From positions 1 through 22,404 of the IMG/VR virus record IMGVR_UViG_3300046313_000220: 22,404 bases of DNA; one strand, given 5' to 3'. Origin of the DNA: a virus. The position numbers and the translations under genes are program-made. The notes below the pieces were generated by a model. It saw only the letters and a list, made by a program, of their open reading frames with translations. It searched no databases and was not told the origin of the DNA. Shown here piece after piece: positions 5,184 through 21,073 of the stretch. Numbering within the stretch: position 1 is the first letter of the stretch; every line of letters starts with the position of its first letter.

Positions 5184-5357
5184 TTAATCAAAATGTTCAT
5201 CATACCACCAGAATTGCATAGTAGTATAAAAAAAAAATTTATCGGTAGTGATAATATTATATGGAGTGAACATCAAGTTTTTCCAAATAATTAGAGAATA
5301 TTTAAAGTCGCTCCAACCAAACATAATTTGTCTAAACGACCATTTATATGGAGTCAT
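5184..5357 (-). CDS. 57-residue aromatic-rich small protein, paralogue of the gene at 6113-6301
   Basis: Begins MTPYKWSFRQIMFGWSDFKY and ends in FWWYDEHFD. Its ATG (5357) lies inside the end of the HNH gene, overlapping by 14 bp. It aligns with the small protein on the other side of the HNH gene: GWSDFKYSLIIWKNLMFTP here against GYTDIKDSYDHWKLLMFNP there, then FW-W-[YH] near both C-termini. The conserved Trp, Phe and WKxLMFxP residues argue that both are real genes and that they are duplicates. No known function or domain. It is the last gene before the bidirectional terminator. Confidence 0.65.
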   Translation of the reverse strand: MTPYKWSFRQIMFGWSDFKYSLIIWKNLMFTPYNIITTDKFFFYTTMQFWWYDEHFD

Positions 5358-6090
5358 TTTTTAAGCCTTGTAATTTAATATTATTAACATAAGCTTCAAT
5401 AGGTATATCCCAAGTTGATTGATTTTCTAGATGCGCTTGAATTAATTGGTCTAGTTTTATCTGATGGTCTGGTGAGAATTGGATAGTATGATCTGGCAAC
5501 CAATTAGGAGTTTCTTTGAGGTATCTTTTTGGTGTAACTAAACCTGATTTAGTGCCGAACTGATAGTGAATATTTTGAAGGTAATTAAGTTCTTTGGCAC
5601 CAAAATTTATACATTTGCCATGTATTCTTGGCATGGCAATTTTTGTTAGATAGCTAGTACCACTATTATTATATCTTATACCAATAGATAGTCCAGATTT
5701 TTTCTTCATTAACACTGTATTAAACCAATGAGTACATAATTCCAAATTAGACAATATATTGTTACTAGGATCTCCGTCGATATGATTGATTACATAATTG
5801 CGATTAGTTTTTACTTCATATACTAATTCATGAATATATACAATTTGACCATTTTTACCTGTATTAAATCTACCTTCATTATCAGCACAAAAATTATATT
5901 GTTTTAATAGATTTATTTTATCTAGTTCTACAGTATTGGTATAAATTTTGCCAGTCTTTGTATTGAGTACATAAAGTTTATCATCTACAAATAATTGATT
6001 ATATGTTAATGCACCAGTATGGGATTTATATATATTATGATGAGGTTGATCAAATTGATAAAGATTGAGTGTTATGTCAAAGTGAATCAT
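5344..6090 (-). CDS. HNH homing endonuclease with AP2-like DNA-binding region
   Basis: 248 residues. The HNH block is LVYEVKTNRNYVINHIDGDP followed by SNNILSNLELCTHWFN (about residues 89-125), the HNH_3-type 'N/HHIDGDxxNN.L.NLE..T...N' signature. It is followed by GIRYNNSGTSYLTKIAMPR and an INFGAKEL segment (about 139-170) that resemble the AP2 fold joined to many phage HNH enzymes. The C-terminal ~80 residues (WLPDHTIQFSPDHQIKLDQL and on) may bind DNA. It sits between two paralogous small genes, as expected of an invading homing gene. A shortened, stop-containing copy of the same gene lies at 15886-16179, showing past spread within this genome. The gene appears intact. Confidence 0.85.
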   Translation of the reverse strand: MIHFDITLNLYQFDQPHHNIYKSHTGALTYNQLFVDDKLYVLNTKTGKIYTNTVELDKINLLKQYNFCADNEGRFNTGKNGQIVYIHELVYEVKTNRNYVINHIDGDPSNNILSNLELCTHWFNTVLMKKKSGLSIGIRYNNSGTSYLTKIAMPRIHGKCINFGAKELNYLQNIHYQFGTKSGLVTPKRYLKETPNWLPDHTIQFSPDHQIKLDQLIQAHLENQSTWDIPIEAYVNNIKLQGLKNDSI

Positions 6091-7456: not shown

Positions 7457-8009
7457 TTATTGATGTTGCCAAGATTTTCCATTTATTATTCTATAAATGG
7501 TTTTTCTATTGACATTAAACGTTGTTGCTATTTGTTTTTGAGAAACATTTTTTTTATATAGTATCTTAATTTCTTCGATATCCTTTTCAGTTAATTTTGC
7601 ACATCCATTTTGTATACCAATATTTTTTCCCTTCACTGATTTAGATATATTATCTTTATGTTCTTTTGTTAGAGATTTGCCCTTTTTCGCATCAGATAAT
7701 TTCTTTTTAATTTCATTAGACATAATATGTCCAGGTTTAAACCCACTGGAAGAATATCATGTTCATACAATTCACGTCACTATAATGTTTTTCTATCCAC
7801 AACTCTTCTGCTATATACAAATCTTCTATCGAACTGTATATGCCTAAAATTATTTTGGATAATTTATTTTTATCTTTAATTTTTCTAATCCAAACACCCG
7901 AACCAAAATACCCGTCATTTAATATATCTTTTTTTGTTGTTGAGTGTCTGCCGATATAATACTTATCATTCCCTTCCAATAATGTTTTATAAACGTAATG
8001 AGTAACCAC
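7457..8009 (-). pseudogene. GIY-YIG homing endonuclease (Seg-like), broken by one frameshift
   Basis: The N-terminal half (8009-7737, probable GTG start at 8009) has HYVYKT (about residues 4-9), YYIGRHS and DGYFGSG, typical of GIY-YIG nucleases of the T4 Seg type, and a later conserved Glu in AEELWIEKHY. It runs into a stop just after CMNM. The C-terminal half resumes in another frame near 7755: SSGFKPGHIMSNEIKKKLSD, then NUMOD3-type repeats (AKKGKSLTKEHKDNISKSVKG) and a helix-turn-helix (VSQKQIATTFNVNRKTIYRI). One indel between about 7740 and 7770 would restore a ~185-residue enzyme. The frame also extends upstream of 8009 into the preceding gene, which I regard as spurious. Either a decayed homing gene or a sequencing error. 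Confidence 0.75.
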
Positions 8010-8077
8010 AAATTTTTTAATAAAATATACATATATATTTATTAAAAAAATGTAGTTACCTGATGCCCCATATAGGT

Positions 8078-8311
8078 TTACTCCCCAATAGATTTTAATC
8101 GTTTTTCCCAACTATCTCCTTCCGCCGGATCCCCAGTTTTATTAATACACTGGAGTTTTAATGCTACCCCATTTGGATTTTTACTAAGATTAGAACACAC
8201 CAGTCCAGCCACATCATTAGCTGAAATTGGCTGAGTAGGTTTATAGGAAAACCTGAATGTACCATCAATGAAATAAACACCACATACAGGACAAATGATA
8301 GGATTTTCCAT
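8078..8311 (-). CDS. 77-residue small protein with CPVC motif, unknown
   Basis: Begins MENPIICPVCGVYFIDGTFR and contains further Cys at about residues 39 and 55, so a zinc-binding ribbon is possible. The middle region (KPTQPISANDVAGLVCSN) is followed by GVALKLQCINKTGDP and a charged C-terminus. It looks like one of the short conserved proteins that T4-like cyanophages carry near the clamp gene, but no specific family is recognised. It starts 4 bp after the stop of the upstream small ORF. The frameshifted homing endonuclease gene follows. Confidence 0.65.
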   Translation of the reverse strand: MENPIICPVCGVYFIDGTFRFSYKPTQPISANDVAGLVCSNLSKNPNGVALKLQCINKTGDPAEGDSWEKRLKSIGE

Positions 8312-9981: not shown

Positions 9982-10803
9982 TTAAGCAGAGTGTAATAAT
10001 GATATTAATTGAATAGATTCATTTTGATAATGCTGTTTTCGAGCAGCAGAATAAGCAGCAGCAGTAGCAGAATCAGCAGCAGCAGAATAAGCAGCAGCAG
10101 TAGCAGTAGCAGAATAAGCAGCAGTAGCAGAATAAGCAGCAGTAGCAGAATAAGCAGCAGCAGAAGCAGAATAAGCAGCAGTAGCAGAATCAGCAGCAGC
10201 AGTAGCAGTAGCAGAATCAGCAGCAGCAGTAGCAGAATAAGCAGCACAAGCAGCAGAATAAGCAGCAGCAGTAGCAGAATAAGCAGCAGCAGCAGTAGCA
10301 TAATCAACAGAATAAGCAGCAGAACGAGCAGCATACCATTCGTTTTTACTCACTTCCTGTATTAATGCCTTTTTATGTAATTCTGCTACATCTACTATAC
10401 ACTCATCATTACTAAATCTGATTACTCCTCGTTCTGGATCTAATAATCTCCATATAGCTAATTTGTGTAATACTGGTTGTAAACACACTCCTACTGGTAT
10501 AGCTTGTATAGATTCTAAAGGAAATCTCATAGCATCATCATTAGGCAATCCTTCAAATATATTATCAAATAAATAGCATATCCATTCTGGTAATCCAAAA
10601 AAATTACTCATATCTTTATGAGAATTAGAATGAATGCAACAACCTACATGACACCCCTTACCATTTTGCCAATAGTGACCTTTAATTATTTGATCGTGGG
10701 CATAGTGGGATTGTAGTTGATATAGGAGATCTTGTTTGAGTTGGTCATTACCATAGAAAGATAAATTATTGTAACGAGTGTAGGAGTGGGTATAGTCGAT
10801 CAT
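9982..10803 (-). CDS. Protein with conserved N-terminal domain and long Ala/Ser/Tyr repeat
   Basis: 273 residues in three parts. Residues 1-155 form a conserved domain known only as a family of unknown function in bacteria and phages: YGNDQLKQDLLYQLQSHYAHDQIIKGHYW, then GKGCHVGCCIHS (about 49-60), then FGLPEWICYLFDNIFEGLPND, then IPVGVCLQPVLHKLAIWRLLDP. Residues about 160-252 are a low-complexity repeat of A-A-Y-S-A-T units, probably one long helix. The C-terminus RKQHYQNESIQLISLLHSA is a short cap found after such repeats. A consensus early promoter (10828-10856) lies upstream. The repeat is a DNA microsatellite, so copy number may vary. Function unknown; early promoter and context suggest a host-takeover gene. 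Confidence 0.8.
   Translation of the reverse strand: MIDYTHSYTRYNNLSFYGNDQLKQDLLYQLQSHYAHDQIIKGHYWQNGKGCHVGCCIHSNSHKDMSNFFGLPEWICYLFDNIFEGLPNDDAMRFPLESIQAIPVGVCLQPVLHKLAIWRLLDPERGVIRFSNDECIVDVAELHKKALIQEVSKNEWYAARSAAYSVDYATAAAAYSATAAAYSAACAAYSATAAADSATATAAADSATAAYSASAAAYSATAAYSATAAYSATATAAAYSAAADSATAAAYSAARKQHYQNESIQLISLLHSA
10043..10335. repeat. AGC/AGT/AGA-type microsatellite encoding the Ala-rich repeat
   Basis: Plus-strand runs of AGCAGCAGT, AGCAGAATA and AGCAGAATC units cover about 290 bp in phase with the minus-strand codons (GCT GCT TAT TCT GCT ACT). All three frames on the plus strand and another on the minus strand stay open here as shadows. Such tracts expand and contract by slippage or recombination in multiples of 3, 6, 9 or 12 bases without breaking the frame. 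Confidence 0.9.
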
Positions 10804-11354: not shown

Positions 11355-14084
11355 TTAGTTAGTGGGGTAGGCTATTTTGGTGAATCCATCGACTTTAGAA
11401 AATTGCATCACTCGATCAAAATCATCGATAGCAACATCTTCTCGATGAGTAATAATCATAATATTATGATCGACCATCTGGTTAATAATACTCATCAAAT
11501 TATTGTTAGAATCATAATCTAAAGAACTATCAAACACTTCATCCATTATCAATATATTAGTACTATTAGCACTATTTAAAGACGCAAGATCTCTAAATGA
11601 GAGCATAATTGCTAGAGATATTTTCATCTTTTCTCCCTCACTAAATGATTCATAAGAAAAATTCTGTTTATCCCTAGCACATATAATTTCTTTAAATAAT
11701 GAATTAAATGTGAAATTTATGTTTAATCCAAATATGTTGAGATAATTATTGATATAGCTATTGAAATATGGTAAATATTTTTCTAGAATTTTTGATTTAA
11801 TCCCAGAATCAGACAACAACTTAACCACTATATCATAATTATTTTTATCTACTTTCAATAAATCCAATTTATTATATAATGACTCTAAATTAGCTTTAGT
11901 GTTAGTCAATTTATCATTATATTCAGTTATATCAGAATTATTTGATTTTGGAATTACGATAGATAATCGGCTAATTCGATTATCTATAGATGTTAGTTCA
12001 CTATTCAAATTTTTCATTTTTTGAGCATGTTCTGTTTTTCTACTAGTCAACTTTTGAATATCTGACAAGATAGCTTGTCCAGAATTAAGTTTTTTAGTGG
12101 CTATATCTAATTTAGTTTCAAAGGATTGTATATCACTCTTAAATTTTAATATAGAATCCCTTTTTAATGTAGGATCTATAGATTGAGTACAAGTAGGGCA
12201 AGTATTGTTACTCTCGTAAAATTTAATTTGTTTGTTGTCCAATTTGATTGCAGCATTACAATCACTTACATAAGTTTTAAGCTTAGTGATATGTGGCTGC
12301 GGATCGCTGAAACCAGATAACTCTAACTCTAGTTTATCCTTTTCTAGCATCAATAAATTGATATTTTTATTGATAGAGTCTTTCTCTAAATTTAATCTAT
12401 TAATTTCTTCACTATTATCCACCACAGTGGTATTGGTGATAGTATTGATGAATGATTGTATTAATACTACTTGCTCATTATTTGATTTGATGTCATTTGA
12501 TATAGATTTAATCTCATCATATAACTCTTTATTTCGCTCTTTAGCCACCACTAACATTTCTGCAAAGATTTTTATATCTAGCAGTTCTTCAATTAGTGTA
12601 CGCCGCACCAATACTGGCTGCTCCATAAAAGGAATATAATTACAACTACCCAATATAGCGATATTAGAAAATGTTAGATAGTTGATTTTAATGATATGAT
12701 CTTCAAGATATTTCTGTTGTTCCTTTACTGAAGACAATTCGTTAAGTTTTTCACCATTAATGTATATATCAAATACATTTGGCTGCTGTCCTCTGACAAT
12801 TTTGTATTCATTATTAGATGAAGAAAATTCTAATTCTACCAGTAATTGTGCTTTATTGGTAGAATTGATTAGTTGACTTTTATTTATATTTCTGTATGCT
12901 ACACCGTATAGTGCATACACAATAGAATCTAGCAATGTCGAACTATTATGGGTCAATTTAAACCCAGTAGTCACATATAATTGATCTTCTGCATCAACGG
13001 TGATACATACTTGTTCTTCCTGATAACCATTCTGTACGATCTCACTAATCGTTGATTGCATAGAACGTCTGGATGGTCGCCATCTGTCATCATGTAATTT
13101 GAATGGGCATACTGGCAATCTGAATGACAAATTCCAGCAATTACCAGACTTATAATGGGTACGATTATCTGCAATTGGTTCACATGCTCGTCCACCCAAC
13201 GATCTTACCAAATCTCTTACTAAAACAATTAAATTGATAGAAGTAGAACTAAAACTAGATCGTGGTCTACCATCTGCTTTTGATAATCCTACACAACCAT
13301 TGCTATCTAATAATCCCTGTAGTAATTCTAGTCTCGATTGATAATCCCATAGCAACCAATCACTATGATCTTTGTGTAAATTTTTATCATGTGATAAACC
13401 ACTATCACGATACTTTGCTATTTCTGGATGAATAGCAGACCAACTATATCCAGATTGTGCAGAATGACCACCATTATTTCTTGAATTAGTAGGAATCCCC
13501 AGAGAAGATTCTAATAGTGGCAGTAGTTTAGATTCAATTCTGTCATCATATGAAACCTTTAGTTGTCCTTGACTAAAACAACCATTACCAAGACAATAAC
13601 CTAGTGCATATCCAAAACTAACAGAGATACCTTCTTGGAGTCCGTCAAATTTAGGTAACGTATATCTTGCAGTATTATCTGATGATTTTCTCACACCATT
13701 GTCAATTAATTCTTGAGTAGTTTTGGTAATTAATACATTTTTACCATGTCTTTTTACCCATACAGACCATAGATGGTCTTTACCACATCGTATATCCACC
13801 CCATCCATAGTCTTTACCGTGTATACATCTTTCACTCCTTGAGGATGGATAGACAATACTTTGATGGGTGTGCCAGCAGAACCAATCACATAGTCACCAG
13901 GACGAATAGCACCCATAGTAGACCAACCTAAAGGAGTTAGAACTGGTTCTGATATTGGTGCTTCTTTACCCGTCCCATTAGACCCTACAACAATAGTTTT
14001 ATTGTGGTTACACAAATCTATTTCTATTGGCACATTACCAACAGAAATGAAATTTTTTATTTTGAGTTTTTTTAGTAAGATCAT
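11355..14084 (-). CDS. 46: Recombination nuclease ATPase subunit gp46 (Rad50-like/SbcC), interrupted by an intein
   Basis: Gp46 is the SMC-like ATPase that, with gp47 nuclease, resects DNA ends for T4-type recombination-dependent replication. The 909-residue precursor contains a 340-residue intein (41-380); the spliced protein of 569 residues matches T4 gp46 (560). Visible in the precursor: Walker A GSNGTGK (34-40) rejoining with SS (381-382) after splicing, zinc hook CPTC (629-632) between coiled coils, ABC signature SEGEK (815-819), Walker B ILIMDE (844-849) and D-loop SSLD. The ATG follows the previous stop directly (TAGATG). Without splicing the ATPase would be dead, so the intein must be removed for function. 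Confidence 0.96.
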   Translation of the reverse strand: MILLKKLKIKNFISVGNVPIEIDLCNHNKTIVVGSNGTGKEAPISEPVLTPLGWSTMGAIRPGDYVIGSAGTPIKVLSIHPQGVKDVYTVKTMDGVDIRCGKDHLWSVWVKRHGKNVLITKTTQELIDNGVRKSSDNTARYTLPKFDGLQEGISVSFGYALGYCLGNGCFSQGQLKVSYDDRIESKLLPLLESSLGIPTNSRNNGGHSAQSGYSWSAIHPEIAKYRDSGLSHDKNLHKDHSDWLLWDYQSRLELLQGLLDSNGCVGLSKADGRPRSSFSSTSINLIVLVRDLVRSLGGRACEPIADNRTHYKSGNCWNLSFRLPVCPFKLHDDRWRPSRRSMQSTISEIVQNGYQEEQVCITVDAEDQLYVTTGFKLTHNSSTLLDSIVYALYGVAYRNINKSQLINSTNKAQLLVELEFSSSNNEYKIVRGQQPNVFDIYINGEKLNELSSVKEQQKYLEDHIIKINYLTFSNIAILGSCNYIPFMEQPVLVRRTLIEELLDIKIFAEMLVVAKERNKELYDEIKSISNDIKSNNEQVVLIQSFINTITNTTVVDNSEEINRLNLEKDSINKNINLLMLEKDKLELELSGFSDPQPHITKLKTYVSDCNAAIKLDNKQIKFYESNNTCPTCTQSIDPTLKRDSILKFKSDIQSFETKLDIATKKLNSGQAILSDIQKLTSRKTEHAQKMKNLNSELTSIDNRISRLSIVIPKSNNSDITEYNDKLTNTKANLESLYNKLDLLKVDKNNYDIVVKLLSDSGIKSKILEKYLPYFNSYINNYLNIFGLNINFTFNSLFKEIICARDKQNFSYESFSEGEKMKISLAIMLSFRDLASLNSANSTNILIMDEVFDSSLDYDSNNNLMSIINQMVDHNIMIITHREDVAIDDFDRVMQFSKVDGFTKIAYPTN
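12945..13964 (-). mobile_element. Class 3-type intein in the Walker A loop of gp46, with degenerate LAGLIDADG endonuclease
   Basis: 340 residues, Glu41 to Asn380 of the precursor, placed between Lys40 and Ser381 of the P-loop. The first residue is Glu, not Cys/Ser. Block B reads DHLW (His104, Trp106), block F QVCITVD (Cys360) and block G LTHN|S (Thr378, His379, Asn380, Ser381). Trp, Cys and Thr at these places are the WCT signature of class 3 inteins, which use the block-F Cys as first nucleophile and are known for P-loop ATPase sites. The central domain has two LAGLIDADG helices, ALGYCLGNG (160-168) and LQGLLDSNG (255-263). In both, the catalytic Asp is Asn, so the nuclease is probably inactive. 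Confidence 0.88.
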
Positions 14085-14828
14085 CTAATAACTTCTACCA
14101 TTAGCAGCAAGATTAAGGGAACCGTTGTATAGATCAGAATGATTTCTATACATGCTTATTGCTACCCAATTCTTAAAATTGGCATATTTGATAGAAAAAC
14201 TCCAATAATTATTTTCAGAAGTATTTCTCAGCACATCTATTAATTTTAATAATTTGCGATCTTCTTCTATCACAGAGGCTTTGTTTTTATTAAAAGCATA
14301 TAAGAAAGATACCCCTCCTTGTAATAATTCTTCTTTATCAAAAAACTCTATATATCTTTTTTCTAATGTAATGTAATTATGCAAATCGTCATATGCACTT
14401 ACCAGTTTCTTATTTTCCTCCCAATGATAATTAACAATATATAAAGGACTACGCTCAAAAATTTGTGGAACAATATTGTCTTTCAAATTATATTCAGGAG
14501 CAGAGTTTAAATAATAATGATTAATAGGTCTACCAATAATACGACAACAAAGATTTTCCAGATGACATTTGTATCTATGTTGTCTAATCTTATCTCTAAA
14601 TTCTTTCTGGCTGCTTATATTAATAATATCGCGAGAAACATACATCTTTAATGTGTGTCCAGACAACAAATAATGTAGTTTATCATCAATATTCAGTAGA
14701 TGCAAGAAAGCATTAATAGTGGCTAATGTTTTTAGCCTAATCGGATAATACTTATATTGATCGGAATCATCACTAGTCGTAGAAATTTGTAATACTGTTG
14801 GTTTAACAAACTTTATAAAATATGCCAT
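14085..14828 (-). CDS. 247-residue unknown protein between genes 47 and 46
   Basis: Begins MAYFIKFVKPTVLQISTTSD; ends LNLAANGRSY. It is rich in Tyr, Lys and Asn with no recognised motif, membrane segment or signal peptide. Position: 15 bp after the gene 47 stop region and directly abutting gene 46 (its TAG touches the ATG of 46), so it must be co-translated with the recombination nuclease subunits. T4 also carries small genes between 47 and 46, but I see no similarity. One possibility is an inhibitor or accessory of the 46/47 complex, based on position only. The N-terminal ~90 residues read as alpha/beta (YYPIRLKTLATINAFLHLLN). Confidence 0.75.
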   Translation of the reverse strand: MAYFIKFVKPTVLQISTTSDDSDQYKYYPIRLKTLATINAFLHLLNIDDKLHYLLSGHTLKMYVSRDIINISSQKEFRDKIRQHRYKCHLENLCCRIIGRPINHYYLNSAPEYNLKDNIVPQIFERSPLYIVNYHWEENKKLVSAYDDLHNYITLEKRYIEFFDKEELLQGGVSFLYAFNKNKASVIEEDRKLLKLIDVLRNTSENNYWSFSIKYANFKNWVAISMYRNHSDLYNGSLNLAANGRSY

Positions 14829-14843
14829 ATTACTTTCCTAAAT

Positions 14844-15869
14844 TCATACTATTTTCTGGTATATATTCTTTATAATCGACATCACCGTATCTATATCGTC
14901 TATGTCTATACTTTGCACATATTCTTCAAACAATTCTAGAGTAGAATTGTTTGAAATTGCTTCATCAGTAAATTCTACATCACTGATATTTTTAACCAAT
15001 TGTTCTACTATTTTAACACTGTATGCAACAGAAGTCAATCTTTCCACATAACTATCAAAATCTTGAATTCCATCTAATCCCTTCACTATTAACTTTACCA
15101 CACAATCCCTATAGGATTCTAGATCAATAGGTGTTAAATATGGTTCATAATAGACAGTTTGATAAAGTTTATAAGGATTTCGTATAAACTTTGTTTTTAG
15201 GGTGGTAGTATCGAGTACAGTTAATCCTCTAACCGCATTCTCATCACCAGCATTCATTTCTCCAAATATACCAATATAGTGAATATTTTGGTAAATAGAT
15301 CTGAAATGAATATGACCAGATAACACCTTAGTATATTTGGAGAAAATATTGGGATCTGTGCCATGAGTGAGGTGGTGTCCTGGTAACAACATGGCACCAT
15401 TGACCTCTAAGTGGGCAAATGCAATTTTTGATTTAGTATCGTCAATAAATTTGACAGTATTATCATAATTACTAGTATTGATCCAAGGAATCAAATCGAT
15501 ACTAGTTCCACCAATATTAATAGTCGCACATTCTGAATAAGTATTGATATTTGTATACTCACCTAATACTAAATCAATAGAATTAATATGGTTCGAGTCT
15601 TTATAATACAGATCGTGATTACCAGTAATGATATGTATCTTTTTATCTTTTAGTTTATCTAGTACATATGTTTTAGTTTGATATATGGTATGTAGTTCAA
15701 GTGATTTGCGGTTATCAAAAAAGTCACCTAATTGGATGATGGTATTGATATTATTTTCTTCTATGTATGGAAGAAAAATATTGTCAAACCACTTTAAGAA
15801 ATAATTCCAGTGCATTGGATCGGATTTTCTTACACCCAGATGGAGATCTGCTAAAATTGCTACTAACAT
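14844..15869 (-). CDS. 47: Recombination nuclease subunit gp47 (Mre11/SbcD-like)
   Basis: Metal-dependent exonuclease partner of gp46 in DNA-end resection. The 341 residues match T4 gp47 (339). Calcineurin-like phosphoesterase motifs are all present: ADLHLG (7-12, Asp8/His10), LGDFFDNR (47-54, Asp49), GNHD (83-86), FAHLEVNG (151-158, His153) and GHIHFR (185-190). The usual 'YxGxPxxMNxGD' block reads YIGIFGEMNAGD (198-209). The C-terminal part is an acidic helical region that should dock onto gp46. A weak AGGA lies about 15 bp before the ATG. The broken HNH copy ends 17 bp upstream. Confidence 0.96.
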   Translation of the reverse strand: MLVAILADLHLGVRKSDPMHWNYFLKWFDNIFLPYIEENNINTIIQLGDFFDNRKSLELHTIYQTKTYVLDKLKDKKIHIITGNHDLYYKDSNHINSIDLVLGEYTNINTYSECATINIGGTSIDLIPWINTSNYDNTVKFIDDTKSKIAFAHLEVNGAMLLPGHHLTHGTDPNIFSKYTKVLSGHIHFRSIYQNIHYIGIFGEMNAGDENAVRGLTVLDTTTLKTKFIRNPYKLYQTVYYEPYLTPIDLESYRDCVVKLIVKGLDGIQDFDSYVERLTSVAYSVKIVEQLVKNISDVEFTDEAISNNSTLELFEEYVQSIDIDDIDTVMSIIKNIYQKIV

Positions 15870-16948: not shown

Positions 16949-17878
16949 CTAATCAAACATTACATCTGCTGTAATGTTTCGTTGAGGAAACGGGAAGCTA
17001 GAGTTTGATTTTCTGGTGCCACTAGATCCATCAATTTCTTCAGGAGTTCCTCCAAGAGCGTAAAATAACTTTGTGAACGGTTTAATAATAACTTCGTCGA
17101 GGACTGTGAAGTGTTCGTCGAGGACTGTACTGATTTTAACGTTGCTGTCATAAATTTTTTCAAATATTCCAGTAATGGTTGATCGATCTGCCAATAAAGT
17201 AGTTTTATCTTGTTGTACATTTTCTGATTGCATATTTTCAATCGCTTGACTTGTTCGGAGTCTGATGGATGAATTGTTGTCATCAACAACTGCATTTGAT
17301 TCATCGAGTATTGCATACGCCCCCCCCACGCTTCTATTTGTGCTATCACTTCCAACACTGGTTCTGGAATCATAAACTTCTCCAACATTTCCCACAAAAC
17401 TTTGATGTGAAATTTCTGGTTGCATGGATTCCATTTTATTAGATTGCGAATCTCGCTGTAGGTCTTTTTCGTTTGTGTCTGACCAGTTGTATTTTCGTAC
17501 TTGATTATATCTGATCGTAATTTTGAATTTATGTTTTTTAAATGACCGTTTTCCATATCCAAGCCAGTCATTTTGTCCTGACATTGGGTAGCAAAATCTT
17601 TTTCTTTCTTGGATGTTTTCTCCAGTTGACTGACTTTTTCCTTCAGTCTGGCTATCTCCAATTCTGCCAATCTCAGCTTTTCTGCTATCTTCATAATCCT
17701 GTCCTTCGCTCTTAGCAAATTTGGCAATCAATCGTTTAGCACAACCCAAACTAGCCACTTTAAATGATTCTAATCCATCAATTACAACCAACCAAAATGG
17801 TGATTGTTTACCAGATTTAGTAGTGTGTCTAATTAATTCGATCATCTCAGTTAAAGTGGTTTGTTTGGCTGTCTTCAT
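16949..17878 (-). CDS. Unknown early protein, locus open in two frames (309-aa frame)
   Basis: Starts MKTAKQTTLTEMIELIRHTT. Residues 20-55 (SPFWLVVIDGLESFKVASLG, CAKRLIAKFAK) look like a folded domain. The rest of this frame is Ser/Asn/Gln-rich. A second frame, +1 to this one, is open from about 17727 to 16960 and encodes a coiled-coil-like protein (LRLAELEIARLKEKVSQLEK), so the true product may be the N-terminus of this frame joined to the other by a frameshift near 17700. A G8 tract on the coding strand (complement of 17320-17327) is a second place where slippage would switch frames. The promoter -10 box ends only 2 bp before this ATG, so translation may be leaderless or start at Met12 (17845). 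Confidence 0.5.
   Translation of the reverse strand: MKTAKQTTLTEMIELIRHTTKSGKQSPFWLVVIDGLESFKVASLGCAKRLIAKFAKSEGQDYEDSRKAEIGRIGDSQTEGKSQSTGENIQERKRFCYPMSGQNDWLGYGKRSFKKHKFKITIRYNQVRKYNWSDTNEKDLQRDSQSNKMESMQPEISHQSFVGNVGEVYDSRTSVGSDSTNRSVGGAYAILDESNAVVDDNNSSIRLRTSQAIENMQSENVQQDKTTLLADRSTITGIFEKIYDSNVKISTVLDEHFTVLDEVIIKPFTKLFYALGGTPEEIDGSSGTRKSNSSFPFPQRNITADVMFD
16960..17727 (-). CDS. Alternative overlapping frame: coiled-coil protein (255 codons)
   Basis: Open on the same strand as, and entirely inside, the 309-aa frame. It contains a regular heptad pattern (KIAEKLRLAELEIARLKEKV, then LKNINSKLRSDIIKYEN) and a helical C-terminus (YFTLLEELLKKLMDLVAPEN). No ATG is placed where it would be expected: the leftmost start is a TTG at 17727, with an ATG at 17694. 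By rough hand count the first third has the GC1>GC3>GC2 order of a normal gene in this frame, whereas further on the other frame looks more typical. Either this is the real body of the gene reached by frameshift, or it is a shadow caused by codon bias. Confidence 0.35.
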   Translation of the reverse strand: MPNLLRAKDRIMKIAEKLRLAELEIARLKEKVSQLEKTSKKEKDFATQCQDKMTGLDMENGHLKNINSKLRSDIIKYENTTGQTQTKKTYSEIRNLIKWNPCNQKFHIKVLWEMLEKFMIPEPVLEVIAQIEAWGGRMQYSMNQMQLLMTTIHPSDSEQVKRLKICNQKMYNKIKLLYWQIDQPLLEYLKKFMTATLKSVQSSTNTSQSSTKLLLNRSQSYFTLLEELLKKLMDLVAPENQTLASRFLNETLQQM

Positions 17879-18200: not shown

Positions 18201-18638
18201 TTATAAATTTTTATAAATATTCTCCAAAGAATTTTTGATCGAAATCATCTCAGGAGAATTTTGATTATTATCCACCCCAACTTCTTGTAACACTCCAGTA
18301 TATTCAACAGAATTGAGATACATATTGTAATATTCAAACATAGTAGGACTCATATCTCCCCAGACTACTACATCTTTTTGATTCATATGAAACGTATTAT
18401 CAGAACTATTACTCATCCACGGTGATAACTGGTAGTTCATAATCATCCGACCACCAGAAATAATTGTTATTGGTCTAACCACCAGTGGATCGGTAATATA
18501 AAAAGACCCGTCTTCTTGTTCTTCAAGATCGTCTGGGATATTGACAAATCCAATAATTTCCTCATTTGTAACTAATTTAATAGCAGCAAAGAATTCTAAA
18601 TCTTGATTTTCAGCTTTTGAGTCTGGAGTTAACATCAT
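18201..18638 (-). CDS. LSm/Hfq-like conserved small protein downstream of uvsW
   Basis: 145 residues; its ATG overlaps the uvsW stop (ATGATG over TGA). The start LEFFAAIKLVTNEEIIGFVN (about 14-33), then FYITDPLVVRPI (46-57) and YQLSPWM (70-76) follow the pattern of an Sm-like fold ('KL.nGEeIIg.v.....i.dPl.i.......l.PWm') found in small proteins encoded beside uvsW in T4-like cyanophages. The role is not established; RNA binding is only suggested by the fold. The C-terminal 50 residues (Asn/Gln-rich) look flexible. Codon use resembles neighbours. Confidence 0.7.
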   Translation of the reverse strand: MMLTPDSKAENQDLEFFAAIKLVTNEEIIGFVNIPDDLEEQEDGSFYITDPLVVRPITIISGGRMIMNYQLSPWMSNSSDNTFHMNQKDVVVWGDMSPTMFEYYNMYLNSVEYTGVLQEVGVDNNQNSPEMISIKNSLENIYKNL

Positions 18639-21073
18639 TTTTTCTTTATTAAATCTATTTCTGTTATGTTAAATTCTAATTCTTCTTCGGAATAATATTT
18701 GATTCTGTCCATCAAATGATCGATAGTATAATTTTTTATATTACCTACACTAATGTTATCCGCGATATCATATATAGTAGCACGTTGTTTAGAATCATGC
18801 AAACGTAAACCTCTCCCTATACTCTGTAAATTGCGTATTCTAGATTTATTTGGTGATGCGAATATGATATTATGTAGGTTTTTAATATTTATACCTTGTT
18901 GGTATGTCTGGTAGGATGCTATTATCACACCATTTTGTTCGGTTTCTACTAATTGTCTAATTCTTTCTCTCTCGTCACTACTAATTTTTCCATATACTAA
19001 ATGTATACTTTTTTCTGGTAGTTCTTTAGTGAACTGTTCATATAGTGGCAGACCTTGTTGTTCTACTCTACTGAATAATACCAAAGTATTGCCTTTTAGT
19101 CTAGAAACTAAATTTTTGATAAAGTTATTTCTAATTTGGTGAGTGACTAGATATTCTAATTCTTCTGTGTACGTTGCAAACATTCGATATGGGTGCTTCA
19201 GAATAAGAATTTTAATAAAAACATCACTAATTTGTTTATTTTTAATTAGTTCGGTAGTAGTGACTACTTGTTTACAGTCACCAAATAAACCCATTAATTG
19301 TAATTTATTAGCTTTAGCACCATCTAGAGTACCAGTAAATCCAAATCTATATTTACATTGATCTAGATGTTGTAGGATGATAGTCAATGATTTGGCAACA
19401 GCAGTGTGGCAATTGCCTGTTATAACAACTTTACCATTGTGGCGAACAACAATATTTCCTGTTGGCACTTTCACACAATAAACTTTGCCATTATAATCGA
19501 TTTCAGATTTAGTTATACCTCGACAACCTATTCTATTAATATGTTTACTAATAAATAATCTATAAACATCATTAAACGTATCAGATCTATTATCAACTTG
19601 AACGGTTTGATTAGTGTGGTAATTACATAGCACCGCCATCGCCTGATAAAAATCAACATTGGCTTTAATAGTTGAACTATAGTAGTATAAACCATTTTTT
19701 GTAATACTTCCATCCCAACAAACCATTTCTTCAATAATTTGTCTACATACATCTAGTGACAATTCCGCAATATTAAAATAATCTGATATATTTTTATAAG
19801 CGTATGAAATGCCACTCACCAAAAATCTTCTTTTATCCTTTACGTTGCCATTACGTTCAGTTCCCTTGACTTCTCTAAAATTAAAGTCACCTTTAGACAT
19901 AATATCTAAAAATTTATTTATTTTACGTTGTTTTGAAAACGTAAAATCTAAAGTTAAAGTTCCATTTATATCAGTGTGCCACAAACTACCATCCGCTTGG
20001 AAAGCAATTAATAACTTATCTAATTCAGTCAATTCTGTTTTAATATTTGATGTTGTCAAACCACAAGTTTTAATAGTCCAATTACCATTATTATAACTAA
20101 CATCTTTATGAGACTTTTTAACATGATTTATTTTATTAAAAAGTAAAATTTCGTGATTTGGTGTGGTAGTTAAGCTTATTCTTCTGTCAGAACTAGCATT
20201 AATCAATTTTCCACTATAGTCATTTTCAATATAACAAATTGGTTTTACAAAAGATATTTCATTTGTGTCTGAATCATATTGGGCAACTAATTCAGTTTTA
20301 TCTAAACAATCAAATCTAACAAATCCTTTATTGGTGAGTATTTCTGTATCTGGGGTAAAGCATTCGTCCACTTGAACGCATCCATACTGTTTGAAATATG
20401 ATTTAGGCTGAGTATATATACCTTGCCACGTAGACATCACTATTGGTTTATCTGATTGTTTTTCACGATCTTCAAATATTTCATGAATTAATCTAACATC
20501 CATACCATAACTAACAAATTCTTTTTTAGTTTGTATTACTAAACTAGTATTTGGAAAAATTATCAAGACTTTAGTAAAATCTTTATAATAATTAGCCAAA
20601 ATATAAAGAGACATGCTCTTGCCGCTACTTGTTGGAGACAGTATTAATTTTCTATTATTAAATATACACTCCTTAACAGTATCTATCTGATAATCTCTAA
20701 GAGAAAATGGCAATTTTAGAGATTTTATATATGTATCTACATCGTAATTACATTTTTCATTTACATCTGGTGAGATTTCATATGTATAATTATTATCCTT
20801 CAGAAAATTGGTGAGATGATCTAGTAGTCCATAATATAATTGCCCACCAGTAACAGAGAATAATCTGATTTTTCCGTCCCACGCACCATTCTTATATGCT
20901 GGCATATATTTGTAGCCAGATACTTCAAATGAGTAATAATCATTCAATATATATCTCAGTTCAGCATCACACTCTACAATAATGTAGAGTTCATTCTTTT
21001 TTTTAATCCTAACGTCAGTCATGAATGCCCCAAAACCTTTAATAAATTTATAGAATGGCACAAAGTATCTCAT
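18635..21073 (-). CDS. uvsW: Recombination helicase UvsW, interrupted by an intein
   Basis: SF2 DNA/RNA helicase that dissociates R-loops and drives branch migration and fork regression, helping the switch from origin to recombination-dependent replication. The precursor has 812 residues; removing the 317-residue intein (238-554) leaves 495, close to T4 UvsW (503). Motifs: N-terminal DNA-binding region (about 20-95), Q-like SLRDYQ, Walker A SPTSSGKS (146-153), DEAH-type box VDE-CH (235-237 + 555-556) split by the intein, motif III FTGTLDG (579-585) and motif VI SIGRGLRLHDSKQR. The likelier start is Met18 (21022), where MTDVRIKKKNELYI matches other UvsW starts. The extra 17 codons overlap a leader with inverted repeats. 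Confidence 0.95.
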   Translation of the reverse strand: MRYFVPFYKFIKGFGAFMTDVRIKKKNELYIIVECDAELRYILNDYYSFEVSGYKYMPAYKNGAWDGKIRLFSVTGGQLYYGLLDHLTNFLKDNNYTYEISPDVNEKCNYDVDTYIKSLKLPFSLRDYQIDTVKECIFNNRKLILSPTSSGKSMSLYILANYYKDFTKVLIIFPNTSLVIQTKKEFVSYGMDVRLIHEIFEDREKQSDKPIVMSTWQGIYTQPKSYFKQYGCVQVDECFTPDTEILTNKGFVRFDCLDKTELVAQYDSDTNEISFVKPICYIENDYSGKLINASSDRRISLTTTPNHEILLFNKINHVKKSHKDVSYNNGNWTIKTCGLTTSNIKTELTELDKLLIAFQADGSLWHTDINGTLTLDFTFSKQRKINKFLDIMSKGDFNFREVKGTERNGNVKDKRRFLVSGISYAYKNISDYFNIAELSLDVCRQIIEEMVCWDGSITKNGLYYYSSTIKANVDFYQAMAVLCNYHTNQTVQVDNRSDTFNDVYRLFISKHINRIGCRGITKSEIDYNGKVYCVKVPTGNIVVRHNGKVVITGNCHTAVAKSLTIILQHLDQCKYRFGFTGTLDGAKANKLQLMGLFGDCKQVVTTTELIKNKQISDVFIKILILKHPYRMFATYTEELEYLVTHQIRNNFIKNLVSRLKGNTLVLFSRVEQQGLPLYEQFTKELPEKSIHLVYGKISSDERERIRQLVETEQNGVIIASYQTYQQGINIKNLHNIIFASPNKSRIRNLQSIGRGLRLHDSKQRATIYDIADNISVGNIKNYTIDHLMDRIKYYSEEELEFNITEIDLIKKK
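19412..20362 (-). mobile_element. Intein with LAGLIDADG homing endonuclease in the DECH box of UvsW
   Basis: 317 residues, Cys238 to Asn554, inserted between Glu and Cys of VDE|CH. Splicing motifs: block A CFTPDTEILT (238-247), block B with TPNHEIL (His307), block F YCVKVPTGNIVVRH and block G VVITGN followed by Cys555. The penultimate residue is Gly, not the usual His, which in other inteins is tolerated or slows C-terminal cleavage. The two LAGLIDADG helices, LLIAFQADGSL (about 354-364) and EEMVCWDGSI (448-457), keep the catalytic aspartates, so the nuclease may be active and the element still mobile. It is a class 1 intein, unlike the one in gp46. Confidence 0.93.

Follow-up and report, generated by a model that had tools for sequence, protein, structure and literature searches.

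The gp46 gene of an uncultivated T4-like phage, which encodes a Rad50/SbcC-like recombination ATPase, is interrupted in its Walker A loop by an in-frame insert that we assign with high confidence to the class 3 inteins. The element is predicted to splice by the class 3 mechanism; it likely originated from gp41 of related phages, and its endonuclease is probably dead, which would leave the intein immobile. The window analyzed here is the whole 22,404-base IMG/VR virus record IMGVR_UViG_3300046313_000220, and the coordinates of the relevant features are collected in Table 1.

The 909-codon gp46 frame runs from its start (MILLKKLKIKNFISVG...GSNGTGK) into the intein (EAPISEPVLTPLGWSTMG......VTTGFKLTHN) and then into the C-extein (SSTLLDSIVYALYG). 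The intein lies between the Lys and Ser of Walker A (GSNGTGK|E41...THN380|SSTLLDS). The N-extein match to phrog_77 ends with K40 at column 333 and the C-extein match resumes with S382 at column 334; thus, measured against the family profile, the insert is exactly placed. A first-pass annotation of this DNA had described an insert at 12945-13964 in the P-loop of a T4-like gp46, and this description held in full. The interval corresponds exactly to codons E41-N380; H104 and W106 (in DHLW), C360 (in VCITVD), T378, H379 and N380 are all where it had put them; both exteins match phrog_77, and gp47 lies upstream. That annotation had not picked up the gp41 relatives, the extra Ser381 or the substitution of Asn in the two endonuclease motifs. 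The resemblance reflects homology rather than chance, as tblastn matched 536 phage records and the top solved-structure matches include class 3 DnaB inteins.

The host protein shows the features of a T4 gp46, namely the phrog_77 match, Walker A, zinc hook, ABC signature and Walker B, with gp47 adjoining. In the window, gp45, gp55, UvsW, gp21 and gp23 are found near gp46, which is separated from gp47 by a 247-aa gene of no recognized family (14085-14828, minus strand). Two more contigs, of 17 and 31.7 kb, carry the same sequence with the same 909-aa frame; over the 22.4 kb, two indels are all that sets the 31.7-kb contig apart from the window. The phage's own gp41 is absent from its contigs. 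Our searches found no gp46 relatives closer than 38% identity, and there were no Rfam matches within the window.

Table 1. Features of the interrupted gp46 gene and its partner gene in the window (intein numbering + 40 = precursor numbering).
Feature	Position	Strand	Evidence
gp47 (Mre11/SbcD-like nuclease), gp46 partner, upstream in the same direction	14844..15869	-	phrog_100, E 3e-86
gp46 (Rad50/SbcC-like recombination ATPase), 909-aa precursor with the intein	11355..14084	-	phrog_77, E 7e-126; SMC_N, 7e-10
N-extein, 40 aa, terminating in Walker A GSNGTGK	13965..14084	-	phrog_77 columns 295-333, E 6.7e-13
Class 3 intein, 340 aa, in-frame, E41-N380 of the precursor	12945..13964	-	Alignment of 95 class 3 inteins; AlphaFold2 pLDDT 92; PDB fold matches
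Block-B His, intein H64 (precursor H104)	13773..13775	-	His in 95/95
WCT Trp, B:12, two residues past the block-B His, intein W66 (precursor W106)	13767..13769	-	Trp in 94/95
Catalytic position of LAGLIDADG motif 1, Asn in place of Asp (LGNG), intein N127	13584..13586	-	Asp in 87/95, Asn in 6
Catalytic position of LAGLIDADG motif 2, Asn in place of Asp (DSNG), intein N222	13299..13301	-	Asp in 93/95, Asn in 2 (counts limited to these two, as the IMG/VR fetch pattern permitted D or N alone here)
Block-F Cys, F:4, predicted to act as first nucleophile, intein C320 (precursor C360)	13005..13007	-	Cys in 95/95
Block G Thr-His-Asn, intein T338-H339-N340 (Thr = G:5; precursor T378-H379-N380)	12945..12953	-	Thr in 94/95; His and Asn in 95/95
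+1 nucleophile Ser381, codon AGT	12942..12944	-	Sequence
Ser-Ser pair, AGT TCG, one residue over the GKST of 78/78 intein-free IMG/VR relatives	12939..12944	-	Alignment
C-extein, starting SSTLLDS, with zinc-hook CPTC, ABC signature FSEGEK and Walker B ILIMDE	11355..12944	-	phrog_77 from column 334 at S382; motif positions

In the literature, class 3 inteins are recognized by the Trp of B:12, the Cys of F:4 and the Thr of G:5, together with the lack of a nucleophile at position 1 (PMC5050341, PMC7664689). Our alignment comprised 95 class 3 inteins in total, for which 92 further members were gathered from cultured phages and IMG/VR. The class proposed by the first-pass annotation was borne out, with the WCT residues aligning with those of 94-95 of the 95 inteins and Cys360 falling at F:4. 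Position 1 is Glu41 and hence not Cys, Ser or Thr. Glu at this position had been regarded as atypical for the class, but the counts ruled this out. The first residues of 63 IMG/VR class 3 inteins at GK| were led by Ala (30), followed by Glu (10), Ser (6), Gly (5) and Phe (4), which makes Glu the second commonest. In phmmer searches, the top solved structure was a class 3 DnaB intein, and the engineered WCT version of gp41-1 ranked above natural gp41-1; no NCBIfam model matched the gp46 intein.

AlphaFold2 modeling of the intein (54 sequences) gave a confident HINT plus LAGLIDADG fold (pLDDT 92, pTM 0.91). With Foldseek, the whole intein model matched PI-SceI (E 3e-16), and the splicing domain matched the class 3 inteins MchDnaB-1 (6rix, 6riy) and M. 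smegmatis DnaB (6bs8), as expected of a HINT fold. By analogy with the WCT splicing chemistry already described (PMC7664689, PMC5050341), Cys360 would attack the peptide bond after Lys40, with His104 activating this Cys as part of a Cys-His-Thr arrangement. The N-extein would be held on Cys360 as an internal thioester and then transferred to Ser381; cyclization of Asn380 would free the intein and the exteins would join, restoring Walker A and hence ATP binding by gp46. In unspliced gp46, the ATP site presumably could not form. The dN/dS ratio was ~0.2 for the N-part of the splicing domain (window versus G003, introduced below) and ~0.36 for the endonuclease domain; at the sequence level, the splicing domain is conserved.

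The nearest IMG/VR inteins, 66% and 53% identical, were found in the Walker A loop of gp41, a DnaB-type helicase, in the uncultivated T4-like phages G003 (L004) and G004 (L005), respectively. This host was identified as gp41 by phrog_19 (E 5e-100), and gp45 of the window is 63% identical to that of G003. Like the window intein, the two gp41 inteins have the block residues and the GK|S position; position 1 is Glu in G003, as in the window, and Met in G004. They differ in their host, in having no extra residue at the site and, in G003, in keeping the second LAGLIDADG Asp. The three inteins form one clade (support 0.996-1.0), with splicing-domain distances of 0.19-0.29 within it and 0.81 to the next sequence, a mycobacteriophage helicase intein. 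In both trees the gp46 intein is nested among the gp41 inteins, a pattern suggestive of gp41 as donor and gp46 as recipient; the gp41 inteins are paraphyletic in both, and gp41 is therefore favored as the older host. This direction is suggested by three sequences, and the trees differ on the sister of the gp46 intein, which is G004 in the splicing-domain tree (0.87) and G003 in the full-length tree (0.91).

The gp46 intein was 81-85% identical to the gp41 pair in the N-part and 83-87% in the C-part, and its endonuclease domain was 58% and 36% identical. The greater likeness of the splicing domain may be due to constraint, exchange or both. The junction DNA (GGGACGGGTAAA|AGTTCG in gp46 versus TCGACTGGTAAA|AGTATA in G003 gp41) matched at 11 of 12 bases from ACG/ACT to AGT and little further out, a match partly attributable to the common coding of Gly-Lys-Ser. 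A more distant gp41 (L018) has an empty site. These features point to movement of the intein from the gp41 Walker A loop of a related phage into gp46, either by the endonuclease or by recombination at the short common sequence AC[G/T]GGTAAA|AGT, and we regard such a transfer within this phage group as likely.

The endonuclease domain retains a predicted LAGLIDADG fold, with helices 118-127 and 208-222 in a beta-rich domain of the AlphaFold2 model and matches to PI-SceI, I-DmoI and I-OnuI. An active LAGLIDADG enzyme has two acidic catalytic residues, one per motif, and the window intein has N127 and N222 in their place. It is well established for LAGLIDADG enzymes that Asn in these places abolishes cleavage. 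Of the 95 inteins, just those of the window and G004 lack both acids. As both catalytic Asp residues are now Asn, the endonuclease is probably dead, homing lost and the intein immobile. An immobile intein would persist, since nothing short of a precise deletion could restore gp46.

Inteins in gp46 are rare. Among the 2711 cultured-phage records that match gp46, the joined Walker A region is spanned by a single unbroken match in 2659; about 52 have less than 80% coverage, part of which we inspected. In one of low coverage, from Salmonella phage rabagast, an intein was not demonstrated. In a junction-spanning tblastn search of cultured phages, the matches listed were only plain gp46 genes or a terminase. 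The first-pass annotation had called gp46 an unusual host; rarity stands, but the claim was overstated, as two other gp46 P-loops, in L096 and L022, also hold inteins. L096 (IMGVR_UViG_3300022719_000071, a 360 kb contig) has a class 3 intein in gp46 (NGCGK|A...THN|SAIIDAL), with the host identified by phrog_77 (E 5e-56) and an upstream gp47 (phrog_100, E 5e-36). L022, a 75 kb contig of a T4-like phage, has a class-1-like intein end at the same Walker A site (DLTVAEQPEFYANGIVSHN|SSGVIDS); this contig begins inside the intein, so that only its C-terminal end is present (L022:1-75). The gp46 Walker A loop has thus been entered at least three times.

In IMG/VR, the pattern HN|S before the gp46 helix occurred in the window population and L022 only, and its THN version in the window population only; both patterns miss L096, in which the spacing is one residue shorter. 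The sole match of the same pattern in 84,980 genomes, L025, was a chance hit. The open-access papers that we searched described no class 3 intein in gp46 or Rad50. Public databases already contain A0A8S5MMH7, a metagenomic phage protein that is named SMC and has a matching intein fold.

The closest intein in cultured phages (34.8% identity over 99% of the intein) was the class 3 helicase intein of mycobacteriophage Bixzunavirus (C1; Pinkcreek, Stubby, Alice), which forms the next branch in the splicing-domain tree (0.92) and occupies a GSGK|A P-loop. It differs in its helicase host, its intact LAGLIDADG Asp and its Ala at position 1. The mycobacterial DnaB class 3 mini-inteins (M. smegmatis DnaBi1, 6bs8; M. 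chimaera DnaB1, 6rix and 6riy) have the same WCT residues and HINT fold but lack an endonuclease domain and reside in a bacterial DnaB. The L096 intein shares its host gene, Walker A position and upstream gp47 with the window intein, whereas it is only 32% identical, lies on a distant branch, keeps both endonuclease Asp residues and has no extra residue at its junction.

The junction of the window intein differs from an intein-free gp46. All 78 intein-free IMG/VR relatives and six other aligned intein-free gp46 sequences read GxNGxGK-ST-x-x-D/E, which puts the acidic residue five positions past Lys. The predicted canonical splice product, GSNGTGK-S-STLLDS, would have one Ser added and Asp at +6 instead of +5 (junction peptide GSNGTGKSSTLLDS). 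The placement of phrog_77 column 334 on S382, not S381, is consistent with one added residue. L022 likewise has SS before GVIDS, and the L096 and gp41 sites have no added residue. The added codon could be either AGT, which is also the +1 codon of the gp41 inteins, or the rare TCG (7/286). The extra Ser could be an insertion scar, native to this gp46 lineage or selected for splicing.

Other readings of the intein's class and origin were weighed against these data. That it belongs to class 1 or 2, with an incidental block-F Cys, is barely conceivable: nothing beyond the common HINT fold favors this, and position 1 lacks Cys, Ser or Thr while Cys320 and Trp66 are shared with 95 and 94 of the 95 aligned inteins. 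Independent entry of gp46 and gp41 from an outside class 3 intein pool has more to commend it, as many phage P-loops have been hit by such inteins and L096 gp46 separately gained a distant one; nevertheless, the tight clade of the window, G003 and G004 inteins, far from the next sequence, makes this improbable. Movement from gp46 to gp41 would be compatible with a set of just three sequences in which the two trees favor different gp41 inteins as the sister. We judge it quite unlikely, because with paraphyletic gp41 inteins an ancestral gp46 host requires two moves, and because a residue has been added at the gp46 site, while the gp41 sites of G003 and G004 are no longer than the empty site of L018. 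The gp41-to-gp46 direction remains our preferred reading. Inteins are thought to switch host genes occasionally, and such switching becomes testable when a close pair of donor and recipient is available from related genomes; here, one intein family occupies the Walker A loops of two T4-like genes with short common junction DNA.

The extra Ser also bears on the fate of the gene. A working gp46 is not assured, since the predicted product would be one residue too long in Walker A. The element might no longer splice, or might yield inactive gp46 through the extra Ser, with the gene heading to loss. The absence of this Ser from all 78 relatives and the missing endonuclease catalytic residues agree with such decay, but every splicing residue is intact, the splicing blocks evolve slowly, and three contigs carry a full-length gp46 frame with intact zinc hook, signature and Walker B, so that we consider this reading quite unlikely. 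More speculative, and in our view doubtful in its entirety, is a combined scenario in which a gp41-to-gp46 transposition in one T4-like group brought or created a Ser-codon scar and was followed by the loss of endonuclease activity, with gp46 working with a lengthened Walker A and depending on an immobile intein that could serve as a redox-sensitive switch through its Cys nucleophile. The extra Ser in the predicted product offers a stringent way of asking if a working ATPase is compatible with a scar left by an intein jump.

The phage group of the window looks intein-rich. The UvsW helicase gene (18635-21073, minus strand) holds a second intein of 317 aa (19412-20362), which is class-1-like, with Cys1, a +1 Cys and a penultimate Gly instead of His; it lies inside the DExH box (VDE|C...GN|CHTA) and matches TIGR01445 and RNR-intein-like models. 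An intein-like insertion (Intein_splicing, Hint_2) is present in nrdA of G004 and missing from the G003 homologue (L045:685-3822, L046:16478-18544, L045:5130-7226). An HNH_3 endonuclease-like protein (5344-6090, minus strand) has six diverged copies, 54-59% identical, in G003, and is a multicopy free-standing family. Another endonuclease-like gene, of GIY-YIG type by eye (7457-8111, minus strand), is split by a 2-base deletion at 7753 and forms a single 218-aa frame in the otherwise identical contig G002. A protein encoded at 9982-10803 (minus strand) has an Ala/Ser/Tyr-rich tail with an 18-21-base tandem repeat (10045-10310), which differs by one 18-base unit between the window and G002. At 16949-17878 (minus strand), long same-strand frames of 309 and 255 aa overlap, the longer being without a Pfam match.
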